Source: Oscillospiraceae bacterium
GTDB taxonomy: Bacteria; Bacillota; Clostridia; Oscillospirales; Oscillospiraceae
Reading direction: 5' to 3'
NCBI GenBank assembly: GCA_017516925.1
Contig: JAFXAQ010000064.1
Location: forward strand, 1 to 41,396
Length of the DNA stretch: 41,396 bases
The position numbers were made by a program, and so were the translations under genes. Within the stretch, counting starts at the first letter, position 1; each line of letters begins with the position of its first letter. Under the pieces are notes generated by a model. That model did not search any database. It was not told the DNA's origin and worked only from the letters and a program-made list of their open reading frames with translations. Below, in pieces: positions 19,409-34,675 of the stretch.

Positions 19409-20179
19409 ATGAAAAAGTACATTGCAATGCTTCTGGCGCTGGTTCTGGCTCTGGGTCTGATTGCCTGCGGCAACACTGACGCCCCCGAAACCACCGCCGG
19501 TACCACCGCTAGTACCACCGCTGCCGCAACCGAGGACACCACCGCCGGCACCGAGGCTGAAGTGGAATTCCCCGCAGTGATGACCTACGCTGAGTACGTC
19601 GCCGCTGAGAAGGATTCCCCTGTCACCGTGGAGTGCTACGTGCAGGCTACTCAGGGCTGGTGGGACAACTCCATCGTCATCTACGCCCAGGATAAGGACG
19701 GCGCCTACTTCTCTTACGGCACCGCTTGCTCCGAGGAAGACAGCGCCAAGCTGGTTCCCGGCACCAAGATTCAGATTCAGGGCTTCAAGACCGAGTGGGA
19801 CGGCGAAGTGGAAATCGTGGACGGCAGCTTCACCTTTGTGGAAGACGGCGACACCTTCATCGCTGAGCCTCTGGACGTCACCGAGCTGCTGACCAACGAC
19901 GAGCTGATTGAGCATATGAACAAGCGCATCACCGTCAAGGGCGCAGAAATCAAGAAGATTGCCTACAAGAATGACGAGCCCGGCGACGATATCTACATCA
20001 CCACCGCTGTGGGCGAGACCACTCTGGAGCTGTGCGTTGAGGTTTACCTCACCGGCACCGACAGCGATGTTTACAAGACCGTTGCCGACCTGAAAGAGGG
20101 CGACAAGGTTGACATCGAGGGCTTCCTGTACTGGTACAACGGCGCCAACCCCCACGTCACCAAGATTACCAAGAACTAA
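19409..20179 (+). CDS. Secreted lipoprotein with OB-fold-like domains, unknown function
   Basis: The 256-residue protein starts MKKYIAMLLALVLALGLIAC with lipobox Cys20. A Thr/Ala/Glu-rich linker (TTAGTTASTTAAATEDTTAG) places the folded part away from the membrane. Residues about 60-145 (SPVTVECYVQATQGWWDNSI, YAQDKDGAYFSYGTACSEED, VPGTKIQIQGFKTEWDGEVE) and about 165-255 (KRITVKGAEI, LKEGDKVDIEGFLYWYNGAN) look like two OB-fold-type beta-barrels, as in secreted proteins annotated with an OB-fold nucleic-acid-binding-like domain. AGGAG precedes the ATG, with its own promoter and a perfect terminator, so it is a single-gene unit. Codon use is strongly biased to preferred codons, suggesting high expression. 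No enzyme motif is visible. Confidence 0.7.
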   Translation: MKKYIAMLLALVLALGLIACGNTDAPETTAGTTASTTAAATEDTTAGTEAEVEFPAVMTYAEYVAAEKDSPVTVECYVQATQGWWDNSIVIYAQDKDGAYFSYGTACSEEDSAKLVPGTKIQIQGFKTEWDGEVEIVDGSFTFVEDGDTFIAEPLDVTELLTNDELIEHMNKRITVKGAEIKKIAYKNDEPGDDIYITTAVGETTLELCVEVYLTGTDSDVYKTVADLKEGDKVDIEGFLYWYNGANPHVTKITKN

Positions 20180-20183
20180 TTAA

Positions 20184-20218
20184 AAAAAGAGCAGGACTTG
20201 CGTCCTGCTCCTTTTTTA
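20184..20218 (+). terminator. Intrinsic terminator of the lipoprotein gene
   Basis: GAGCAGGAC-ttgc-GTCCTGCTC followed by CTTTTTT, with an A-run on the other side. Confidence 0.92.
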
Positions 20219-20220
20219 TC

Positions 20221-20442
20221 GATAGAAACCCTTTATGGGGTTTCTATCATATCGAATGCCGTAGGCATATATCGAATTTGCCGTAAGGTAAATATATCGA
20301 TTTTGCGAAGCAAAAATATCGACAAAATCATACACTCTCTGCCATACCCCTGTCGATATAAATCCCTTGCGGGATTTTCGATATGTGCTACGCACTCGAT
20401 ATTCCGCTTTGCGGATCGATATGTTTGCTTCGCAAACGAGAT
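20221..20442. repeat. Hairpin array A: two opposed modules of palindromes separated by ATATCGA / TCGATAT
   Basis: Eight short palindromes alternate with a constant heptamer. The left module has ATATCGA at 20249, 20269, 20294 and 20316, with stems GATAGAAACCC, ATGCC, ATTTGCC (one G-T pair) and TTTTGC. A 30-bp non-palindromic centre (20323-20352) follows. The right module has TCGATAT at 20353, 20378, 20396 and 20416, with stems AAATCCC, GTGC, TCCGC and GTTTGC. The four left heptamers are complementary to the four right ones in mirror order, so the whole region can fold as a stacked tree. It fills the gap between two terminators and contains no gene. Confidence 0.9.
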
Positions 20443-20478
20443 GAAAAAAGCTGCCTGAATTCTCAGGCAGCTTTTTTC
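20443..20478. terminator. Terminator of metG (bidirectional)
   Basis: AAAAAAGCTGCCTGA, short loop, TCAGGCAGCTTTTTT. It sits directly downstream of metG on the minus strand. Confidence 0.92.
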
Positions 20479-30260: not shown

Positions 30261-30354
30261 GATGCGCCTTGCGCATCATATCGAATGCCGAAGGCATATA
30301 TCGAATTTGCCGTAAGGCAAATATATCGATTTTGCGAAGCAAAAATATCGACAA
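30261..30354 (+). repeat. Hairpin array B: a single module of palindromes separated by ATATCGA
   Basis: Stems GATGCGC (30261-30277), ATGCC (30285-30297), ATTTGCC (30305-30322) and TTTTGC (30330-30344) are each followed by ATATCGA (30278, 30298, 30323, 30345), ending ATATCGACAA. The last three stems and all separators match the left half of array A almost base for base. It lies in the divergent region between eutG and the GH2 gene. Confidence 0.9.
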
Positions 30355-32760: not shown

Positions 32761-34110
32761 ATGCTTACCAAAAACCAAATCTACGAAGCCACTATCTGTG
32801 ACTACACCACCGAAGGACAGGGCATTGCCAAAATCGACGGCTGCGCTGTGTTTATTCCCAATGCCCTTTTTGGAGAAAAGGTCCTTGTGAGAATCGAAAA
32901 AGCCCAGAAAACCTGGGCTTCCGGTAAAATCACGGAAATTTTGGACAAATCCCCCCACCGGGTCAACCGGGAATGCTCCGTTGCCAAGCTTTGCGGCGGC
33001 TGCAGCTTCTGGCATATGGACTATGCCGAGGAAGCCCGCCTGAAGGCAGACCGGGTCAAGCAGTGCCTGAACCGCATCGGCGGCGAAAGCCTGCAGGAGG
33101 TGCCCATTCTCCCCGCCCCCAGCTGCAAGGCTTACCGGAACAAGGCCCAGTATATGCTCTCCACCGTCAAGGGGAAAGCCGTTGCCGGGTTCTTCCGGGC
33201 AGGCTCGCATCAGGTGGTGGAAAACCCCGGCTGCCTGATTTTGCCCCCGGAGATGGACCAAATCAAGGACCTGGTGCTGGATTATGTAAACCAGCAGAAG
33301 ATAACCGTCTACGACGAAACCGCCCACAAGGGGCTCCTGCGCCATATTTACGTCCGCAAGGGCTGGGTCAGTGGCGAAATTCTTGTGTGTCTGGTTGCCA
33401 ACGGCAGAACGCTGCCCCATTTGCCGGCGCTTTTGGAGCGCCTGAAAACCGTCCCCGGCTTTACCTCCCTGGTGCTGTCCGTCAACACCCAAAAGGGCAA
33501 CACCATTTTAGGCGACGAGTGCATCACCCTCTACGGCAACGGCTATATCGAAGACACCCTCTGCGGTCTTACCTTCCGCCTGTCCCCCCAGTCCTTCTAT
33601 CAGGTGAACCACCCCCAGGCAGAGCGCCTGTACCAGGCCGCCATCGCCCAGGGAGAAATCACCAAGGACGATTTGGTGCTGGACCTGTATTGCGGTGTGG
33701 GCACCATTACCCTGTGTATGGCAAGCCATGCCAAAAAGGTCATCGGCGTGGAGGTAGTGCCTGAGGCAATCGAGGATGCCAAAGCCAACGCAAAGCGCAA
33801 CGGCATTGATAATGCAGAATTTTTCTGCGGCGATGCCGGCAAAGCCGCTTTGGAATTGGAGGCCAAGGGCATCATCCCGGACGTTGTGGTGGTGGACCCG
33901 CCCCGAAAAGGCCTGAACAGCGATACCATCGAAGCGCTGAACAGAATGTCCCCCCGCCGGATTGTCTACGTCTCCTGCGACCCGGCAACCCTCGCCCGTG
34001 ACGTCGCCCTCCTCAAAGAAAAAGGCTACGCGCTCCAAAACGCAATGTGCGCTGATTTGTTCCCACGTACTGCGCATATCGAATCAATCGTGTGTCTTAC
34101 ACACGATTGA
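32761..34110 (+). CDS. rlmD: 23S rRNA (uracil-C5) methyltransferase, RlmD/RumA type
   Basis: The 449-residue enzyme transfers a methyl group from S-adenosylmethionine to C5 of a 23S rRNA uridine. It has an N-terminal TRAM domain (residues about 1-60, YTTEGQGIAKIDGCAVFIPN), the iron-sulfur cluster motif CSVAKLCGGC plus the later NPGC cysteine, the SAM-binding LDLYCGVGTITLCMA, VDPPRKGL, and the catalytic cysteine in IVYVSCDPATLARD. The TRAM domain and length fit the Firmicutes RlmCD/RumA group. The last residues, HIESIVCLTHD, correspond to the normal HVESVVLL end but are encoded by the left arm of a 16-bp palindrome that opens hairpin array C, so the stop codon lies in the right arm. Confidence 0.93.
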   Translation: MLTKNQIYEATICDYTTEGQGIAKIDGCAVFIPNALFGEKVLVRIEKAQKTWASGKITEILDKSPHRVNRECSVAKLCGGCSFWHMDYAEEARLKADRVKQCLNRIGGESLQEVPILPAPSCKAYRNKAQYMLSTVKGKAVAGFFRAGSHQVVENPGCLILPPEMDQIKDLVLDYVNQQKITVYDETAHKGLLRHIYVRKGWVSGEILVCLVANGRTLPHLPALLERLKTVPGFTSLVLSVNTQKGNTILGDECITLYGNGYIEDTLCGLTFRLSPQSFYQVNHPQAERLYQAAIAQGEITKDDLVLDLYCGVGTITLCMASHAKKVIGVEVVPEAIEDAKANAKRNGIDNAEFFCGDAGKAALELEAKGIIPDVVVVDPPRKGLNSDTIEALNRMSPRRIVYVSCDPATLARDVALLKEKGYALQNAMCADLFPRTAHIESIVCLTHD

Positions 34111-34313
34111 TTCGTCGATATAAATTCCTGACGGAATTTTCGATATGCGCTAACGCGCTCGATATGTGCTTCGCACTCGATATGCCCTGCGGGGCAAGAA
34201 GGAATTTATATCGTCCTCGTCGCCAACGGCGACATATCGAACCGCAACGCGGTATATCGATTTTGCCGTCAGGCAAAAATATCGAGTTTGCCAACGGCAA
34301 ACATATCGACAAA
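34076..34313. repeat. Hairpin array C: two opposed modules between rlmD and the S23-type gene
   Basis: It opens with ATATCGA (34076) and a 16-bp stem (34080-34114) built on the end of rlmD. TCGATAT follows at 34115, 34140, 34159 and 34177, separated by stems AAATTCC, GCGC and GTGC, then GCCC. After a 12-bp centre, ATATCGT (34208) and ATATCGA (34234, 34254, 34279, 34303) alternate with stems GTCGCC, ACCGC, TTTTGCC and GTTTGCC. All stems are perfectly paired. The heptamers are complementary across the centre, in the opposite polarity to array A. It ends four bases before the AAGGAG of the next gene. Confidence 0.9.
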
Positions 34314-34327
34314 AAGGAGTTGTAAAT

Positions 34328-34675
34328 ATGGATAAAGACCAATTAAGAGAAGATAGCGTAACCTTTGCGCTTGCTTTCTCTGATGTATGTGACAACATAA
34401 AAGGTTGCTCTGTTTTTGTAAATCAACTTCTACGCTCGGCATCCTCAATAGGCGCAAATTTGCATGAGGCAAGGTACGCCCAAAGCCGTGCGGACTTTAT
34501 CAGTAAATTGGAAATCGCCTTAAAAGAAAGCTCCGAAACGGATTATTGGTTGGAATTATTGTATCGAAAGGGCAAATTATCTGAGGCAGCGTATAAACAG
34601 CTTCGCAATCTTTGCGGAGCTATCCGCCGCCGGTTAATCGCCTCCATCACCACCGCAAAAGAACACAAAGACTAA
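34328..34675 (+). CDS. S23-type four-helix-bundle protein (23S rRNA intervening-sequence protein family)
   Basis: The 115-residue protein begins at ATG 34328 with AAGGAG eight bases upstream. The frame is open further left only because it crosses the array. The sequence is all-helical with the conserved core LLRSASSIGANLHEARYAQS RADFISKLEIALKESSETDY (split into two) and WLELLYRKGKL, the pattern of the S23/IVP family (PF05635), whose members are often encoded within intervening sequences of 23S rRNA and are related in fold to the Avd protein of diversity-generating retroelements. Biochemical function is poorly known; nucleic-acid binding has been suggested for the fold. Here it is not in an rRNA gene but directly follows a structured hairpin array and ends in a perfect terminator. 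It is more AT-rich than its neighbours, suggesting mobility. Confidence 0.85.
   Translation: MDKDQLREDSVTFALAFSDVCDNIKGCSVFVNQLLRSASSIGANLHEARYAQSRADFISKLEIALKESSETDYWLELLYRKGKLSEAAYKQLRNLCGAIRRRLIASITTAKEHKD

Follow-up and report, generated by a model that had tools for sequence, protein, structure and literature searches.

Arrays of hairpin-separated heptamers in gut Clostridia are linked to S23 genes and probably belong to a mobile element

Results

Array A and related arrays

The stretch of DNA analysed in this work, further called the window, comprises 41,396 nucleotides (positions 1-41,396 of contig JAFXAQ010000064.1) of an Oscillospiraceae bacterium (assembly GCA_017516925.1, the source genome). 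The repeat array described here, array A, lies in it between two genes that converge and that each end in a terminator-like hairpin: an uncharacterised one at 19409-20179, without a Pfam family at E 0.001, and metG. Judging from their sequence, both hairpins adjoin the array, the one of the upstream gene being followed by a T run (20189-20217, + strand) and the one of the metG 3′ end carrying A/T runs (20443-20478, − strand). The array itself, read on the + strand, is composed of an outer palindrome 5′ of the first heptamer (20221-20248, GATAGAAACCC.../...GGGTTTCTATC), a right-form module with four ATATCGA heptamers (20249, 20269, 20294 and 20316), three hairpins and a closing C (20249-20323), a 28-nt centre without an ORF (20324-20351), a left-form module in which a G is followed by four TCGATAT heptamers (20353, 20378, 20396 and 20416) and three hairpins (20352-20422), and a final hairpin, GTTTGC-TTC-GCAAAC (20423-20437); the outer palindrome and the final hairpin are extra palindromes on either side beyond the heptamers. 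The preliminary description of this locus was correct in the positions of all eight heptamers, in the stems, including a single G-T pair, and in the 30-nt segment separating the last ATATCGA from the first TCGATAT. The outer bases of this segment, C20323 and G20352, are able to extend the trunk by one pair. In contig C40 of a related genome (G055, locus L048) the position matching the centre is occupied by an S23 gene.

A single right-form module with its own outer palindrome (30261-30354, + strand) repeats the first half of array A almost unchanged at a distance of 10 kb: 20246-20325 and 30275-30354 are 97.5% identical over 80 bp, though the palindromes preceding them (20221-20248 and 30261-30277) are unlike. 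Further downstream lies a left-first array (34115-34310, + strand), with TCGATAT at 34115, 34140, 34159 and 34177 and ATATCGA at 34234, 34254, 34279 and 34303, the centre of which (34200-34213) is the exact complement of 34115-34128. It is preceded by an edge palindrome (34080-34114, + strand), whose outer arm is rlmD coding DNA and whose inner arm is an inverted copy of it, and directly followed by a gene for a 115-aa S23 protein (34328-34675, + strand; PF05635, E 6.4e-20) with Glu at position 62.

The pattern ATATCGA-N8-25-ATATCGA was found 51 times in the source genome, in 10 array places including array A, and the reversed pattern used as a control gave 0 matches there; the pattern also recurs in related genomes, both within the genus and within the order, where the preliminary description had proposed to look for it. 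Some match is present in 38 of the 60 related genomes, many of the single ones being chance-like, and among the matches listed clear ATATCGA arrays are seen in G055, G054, G033, G031, G028 and G029. Arrays of the same anatomy with other heptamers, the reverse complement being placed in the opposite half, occur in gut Clostridia; those with GTGAAGT gave 18 matches in the source genome and 56 in G016. Scanning of named genomes gave real arrays at 39 loci among the 80 titles listed, all 39 titled Clostridia, Oscillospiraceae, Ruminococcaceae or Christensenella, and the scan of genome contigs gave them in 54 of 118 loci among the matches listed (two-palindrome rule). Array-like repeats with the words ATGAATT and GCGATAT were also seen in the source genome (L549 11486-11593 and 13439-13546; L550 7421-7583 and 13940-14102; G000:C1 3978-4097), which, together with the GTGAAGT arrays, means that several word families coexist in this genome, many of them on contig C41.

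The observed anatomy of the family is that of two modules in opposite orientation, each with 3-4 hairpins and about four heptamers, either the right-form first, as in array A, or the left-form first, as at 34115-34310. In left-first arrays the centre often contains the complement of the first heptamer and the first hairpin arm; such a complement of at least 9 nt was present in 20 of 66 oriented entries (elements were entered in both orientations, chance loci included), against a mean of 2.7 and a maximum of 8 when first hairpins were re-dealt. The arm varies by element (AAATCCC, AGCTCCC, AAATTCC, AAATTTC, GAATTC and others) and the centre varies along with it.

Hairpins and folding

Within the window ATATCGA is repeated 15 times at a distance of 8-25 nt around a palindrome, and only two other heptamers flank palindromes likewise, once each. 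Perfect end-anchored stems of at least 4 bp were found in 86 of the 99 distinct ATATCGA-delimited spacers collected from the window and 20 fetched loci, compared to a mean of 5.07 palindromic spacers (maximum 11, 200 trials) after re-dealing the 3′ halves. The 86 hairpins have 63 distinct 5′ arms, and the view that we deal with a structured family, in which stems are kept paired while their sequences change, is borne out. On the right-form strand GNA is present in 25 of 53 three-base loops and GNNA in 14 of 25 four-base loops, with a C-G closing pair in 76 of 86 hairpins; for window-wide hairpins of either strand form the counts are 19/86 (GNA) and 16/65 (GNNA). Loops of these types are very stable in DNA, and they carried no weight in our deciding between explanations.

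Complementarity of the left-form and right-form modules allows one strand to form 7-bp trunk segments, with hairpins emerging at every junction. When DNA parameters are used, the fold of lowest free energy for array A is the tree proposed in the preliminary description plus one apical pair (−55.4 kcal/mol; −53.4 for the tree as drawn), while with RNA parameters the tree (−81.0) gives way to a different, better fold (−90.1). Array A folds strongly as RNA, with z = −9.33 and 0 of 200 shuffles equally good. Neither the stems (9 G-U v 6 A-C; 13 other) nor the heptamers (25 v 19; 79 other) display an excess of G-U over A-C, and selection at the RNA level is therefore neither supported nor excluded by this comparison.

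S23 genes linked to the arrays

PF05635 is present in 37 of the 60 relatives, and 79 S23 places, of which 74 are distinct, were read; the window S23 protein itself has one match among solved structures, 2rld. The genes fall into two classes: class 1 is closer to the window protein and usually has a hairpin array upstream, and class 2 is closer to the second S23 of the source genome and has short repeats without hairpins. Our array rule, which used a list of 20 words drawn up after viewing the regions, was passed by 39 of 51 class-1 regions and failed by 12. A word-and-complement score using no preset words reached at least 3 in 28 of 50 array-class S23 neighbourhoods versus 9 of 219 stretches used as controls, other arrays being present in some of the latter. 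Altogether 15 words were found among the 39 S23 loci, the copies inside one element mostly agreeing and the opposite half being the reverse complement.

For 23 distinct hairpin-less S23 genes the best repeat period was 7 upstream in 20 and downstream in 21, in a comparison of periods 3-12 made with no shuffled control and on flanks that are complementary. The second S23 of the source genome (L058, G000:C54, about 1498-1842) lies between ruvC and ruvA and has inverted period-7 repeats of the AATTGAA type, without hairpins, on both flanks; in other genomes, where the heptads are different, S23 is seen either at ruvC-ruvA or in the purH-purD interval. Arrays also exist without any S23 found for their word. 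This includes the source genome (assembly about 84% complete), which has GTGAAGT arrays, yet both S23 genes found in it go with other words.

Between genomes, the identity of S23 proteins is 0.680 for pairs with the same word (55 pairs) and 0.494 for pairs with different words (662 pairs), a difference reached in 0 of 2000 permutations. Same-word pairs from different families (0.663, 44 pairs) exceed different-word pairs from one genus (0.512, 91 pairs), and the closest S23 from another genome has the same word in all 33 of the 39 loci that have a same-word partner. Judged by these identities, S23 similarity tracks the heptamer more than the host.

The co-variation was also observed at a single residue. 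At position 62, numbered on the window S23, Glu goes with T as base 5 of the left-form word (19 loci), and Gln or His goes with A (20 loci), without exception in 39 loci; the register of the words was set by hairpin borders and by base 4, which is A in 39/39, with L075 and L076 adjusted by eye. On the tree of these 39 loci residue 62 and base 5 switch together, three times. The rule was then applied to 86 held-out S23 ORFs, taken from further genomes of this order and read by automatic word detection fixing only base 4. Verdicts were obtained for 17 ORFs under strict and 33 under relaxed conditions, and the rule was obeyed in 17/17 and 33/33 of them, respectively. When 56 loci are taken together the switches are still three; the rule draws its strength from about three concordant tree switches, not from independent loci.

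Array sites and probable mobility

A presence/absence difference was observed at metG, which is adjoined by array A in the source genome and by no array in the 29 further metG loci that were compared (the criterion was one of 12 words occurring four times within 450 nt; one of these loci has only 30 nt of sequence, one has three copies and some are paralogues or partial). S23 proteins are 92% identical between host families (G031/G046 and G046/G059); rlmD of the source genome and of G046 are only 51% identical. Of nine pairs of S23 elements compared, five have DNA similarity that stops no more than 5 nt from the stop codon of S23, different genes following, and in three it stops about 12-27 nt before this codon; in the ninth, G030 and G009, which share a chromosomal site, it continues past the stop, and G030 differs from G009 by one more array, itself S23-less, located after S23 and ahead of the next terminator. 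Comparison of a G028 array with G031, G030, G033 and G029 gave similarity only from downstream of the array, with no empty-site junction.

Rfam detected tRNA genes in 8 of 12 S23 loci, several of them immediately 5′ of the array with its terminator palindrome. Of 33 distinct loci read at the rlmD 3′ end, 11 carry a word in four or more copies, four different words being involved, in a set that is enriched because several loci came from array or S23 searches; for loci from the rlmD search with readable downstream sequence the count is 4 of 24 (the source genome, G016, G012 and G046). The rlmD edge palindromes use each host's own rlmD coding DNA, several being imperfect; ungapped scores range from 6 to 18 among the 11 carriers, ten of them exceeding 6, and do not exceed 6 in the 22 others. 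A like palindrome is found at the end of a response-regulator gene in G033. The inverted host DNA at rlmD suggests that insertion involves DNA synthesis primed by folding back of a hairpin. Of selection on structure and palindrome-making copying, both offered in the preliminary description, the latter is favoured, for the insertion edges at least, by those palindromes that consist of host coding DNA. In L258, L260, L261 and L263 the rlmD frame continues into an extra C-terminal stretch, alike by eye.

In G033:C69, G016:C90 and G016:C101 either S23 or small passenger genes are enclosed by direct repeats of arrays with 95-100% identity. The scan comprised 33 rows from 26 loci, and the rows of L114, L130, L141, L154, L178 and L182 were excluded as evidence since these loci failed the two-palindrome rule. 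A passenger ORF of about 95-100 aa, alike by eye in L052, L259 and L551 (1669-1956), was seen at rlmD ends and in array cassettes, and in L259 (G017) an rlmD-3′-end-like piece is repeated after it.

The arrays also occur in phage genomes. In viral contigs an array separates the terminase gene from the portal gene (L297) or an unknown ORF from the gene of a major head protein (L347), and arrays with an S23 match were found in L491. The viral locus L451 (13093-13400) has a tRNA end, a terminator palindrome and a GTGAAAT array, followed by what by eye is an S23-like frame with an internal deletion; tblastn gave no S23 match in it. Under the two-palindrome rule, the viral scan yielded real arrays in 6 of 96 loci for ATATCGA and at least four among the 120 loci listed for GTGAAAT.

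As for candidate movers, reverse transcriptase is present in 4 of 8 carrier genomes, with no RVT_1 match in the source genome (about 84% complete), and Y1_Tnp in 7 of 8, some matches being fragments, with two matches in the source genome and none found in G012 (78% complete), which has an S23-linked array. Both were rejected as a general mover, and since neither was found throughout, no mover common to the carriers emerged. A RAYT-like (Y1 transposase) ORF was noticed by eye downstream of ruvA near the second S23 of the source genome (L058, about 2500-2990).

Discussion

We consider it probable, from the sequence comparisons presented above, that array A belongs to a mobile element linked to S23, as a copy that lacks the S23 gene, and that its heptamer is a recognition word read by S23. 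The palindromes between the words would serve as a scaffold, whose sequence drifts and whose hairpins persist. Copies are located next to terminator palindromes, close to tRNA genes and at the 3′ ends of a few genes, rlmD among them, and direct repeats of arrays would then bracket S23 or passengers as cassettes. We infer direct binding of S23 to the heptamer, be it as RNA or as DNA, a single-stranded intermediate and movement in trans. The preliminary description, although right about a structured family, did not include the variation of the heptamer, the S23 partner, the mobile and cassette behaviour, the half-array 10 kb away or the relationship to Gut-1.

According to another explanation, the array is a non-mobile RNA structure inherited vertically, being an extended terminator, an mRNA-stability element or a 5′ leader that regulates S23 and its neighbours. 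It would agree with arrays located at gene ends and right upstream of S23, with strong RNA folding (z of −9.33 and −7.65) and with the related Gut-1 being classed as sRNA by Rfam, but a near-identical module is present at two sites 10 kb apart, the metG array is absent from all 29 other metG loci, S23 elements are 92% identical across families, arrays stand beside phage head genes, G-U pairs are not in excess and the RNA minimum-energy fold of array A differs from the tree. This makes it unlikely in our opinion.

Still less probable is a REP/REPIN-like element moved by a Y1 (RAYT) transposase, S23 being a bystander. Hairpin substrates fit Y1 transposases, Y1_Tnp was found in most carriers and a RAYT-like ORF lies near the second S23; however, G012 has an S23-linked array and no Y1_Tnp was found in its 78% complete assembly, the stems of the hairpins vary in sequence (63 kinds of 5′ arm among 86), and it is S23 that co-varies with the word. 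Just as improbable is that the palindromes are by-products of template switching, with S23 and the heptamers kept together by descent only and no recognition: edge palindromes do copy host DNA, and shared descent would also give the few word and protein changes on the tree, but copies in one element agree, the opposite half matches, words differ between elements, period 7 is found around hairpin-less S23 genes too, and the switches of residue 62 and of base 5, about three, coincide.

Returning to the S23-linked mobile element, we would extend it tentatively, with chances somewhat short of even, to the whole family: PF05635/S23 proteins may be sequence-specific readers of heptamers which, together with the arrays, form a class of mobile elements of their own, in which a small protein without known catalytic activity and its word co-diversify and non-autonomous hairpin trees and gene cassettes spread through a single-stranded, fold-back-primed intermediate, and of which Gut-1, rRNA intervening sequences and period-7 repeats would be parts. 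The comparisons bring together an orphan RNA (Gut-1), the intervening sequences of rRNA genes and hairpin arrays dispersed in gut Clostridia. Many natural protein-word pairs also become available for the study of the joint change of a binding protein and its site. As the heptamer preference is predicted from one residue, the function of S23 is directly testable.

Comparison with known systems

CRISPR arrays have unique non-palindromic spacers and repeats in one orientation. The preliminary description had set this system aside, rightly, and we rejected it as well: 86 of 99 spacers are palindromic here and the repeat orientation inverts at the centre. REPIN/RAYT systems consist of dispersed, palindromic, non-autonomous copies with a conserved palindrome sequence. 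A Y1 transposase is indeed encoded in the source genome, but the stems of the arrays are not conserved (63 arms in 86 hairpins) and the co-varying protein is S23. Integron attC sites are structured repeats in direct orientation around small genes, a feature shared with the array cassettes, in which the repeat anatomy differs.

Avd of diversity-generating retroelements is said to be homologous to PF05635 (PMC10053308); such retroelements have a reverse transcriptase, and the source genome (about 84% complete) gave no RVT_1 match. S23 itself has been known since the early-1990s work on intervening sequences (Ralph and McClelland 1993), is described in passages of PMC3936711 and PMC4990558 as still of no known function, and 18 of its genes were reported in cas loci (PMC3936711); in the open-licence literature we found no paper joining S23 genes with hairpin arrays. 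The intervening sequences of 23S rRNA genes have an S23-family ORF with inverted repeats; in that of Coxiella the S23p ORF is reported to be preceded by heptameric repeats in tandem, and the terminal stem to measure 28 bp (PMC4990558). Array A has stem-forming inverted terminal repeats (four ATATCGA against four TCGATAT), but its 28-nt centre is without an ORF and it lies between an uncharacterised gene and metG, not in an rRNA gene; the family as a whole differs in arrays outside rRNA genes, hairpin-separated heptamers, S23-less copies, passengers and word-specific S23 lineages.

At the gathering score Rfam has no match in the window, and its matches to FinP, RcsR1 and CsrC over array A, below gathering, were rejected as generic-terminator-like hairpins. 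The best candidate for a relative is Gut-1 (RF01706), to which 20351-20427 aligns with 20.4 bits (E 4.8), below the gathering score of 50 that marks membership; at gathering, Gut-1 gave five matches in 4 of 12 S23 loci, on both strands in L088. Passages of PMC2864571 dealing with Gut-1 list it as a certain RNA, not cis-regulatory and only in human gut sequences, and give no partner or function for it there; no paper joining it with a protein was found in the open-licence literature. Gut-1 is a partial known relative that the preliminary description, whose author knew of no described family of this form, did not take into account. Like array A, Gut-1 has three hairpins separated by one constant heptamer, but its 77-nt model is equal to half an array and its word is GUGAAAU, not ATATCGA. 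By sequence and layout, then, Gut-1 corresponds to half of one subfamily of these arrays, namely a single module with the word GUGAAAU.
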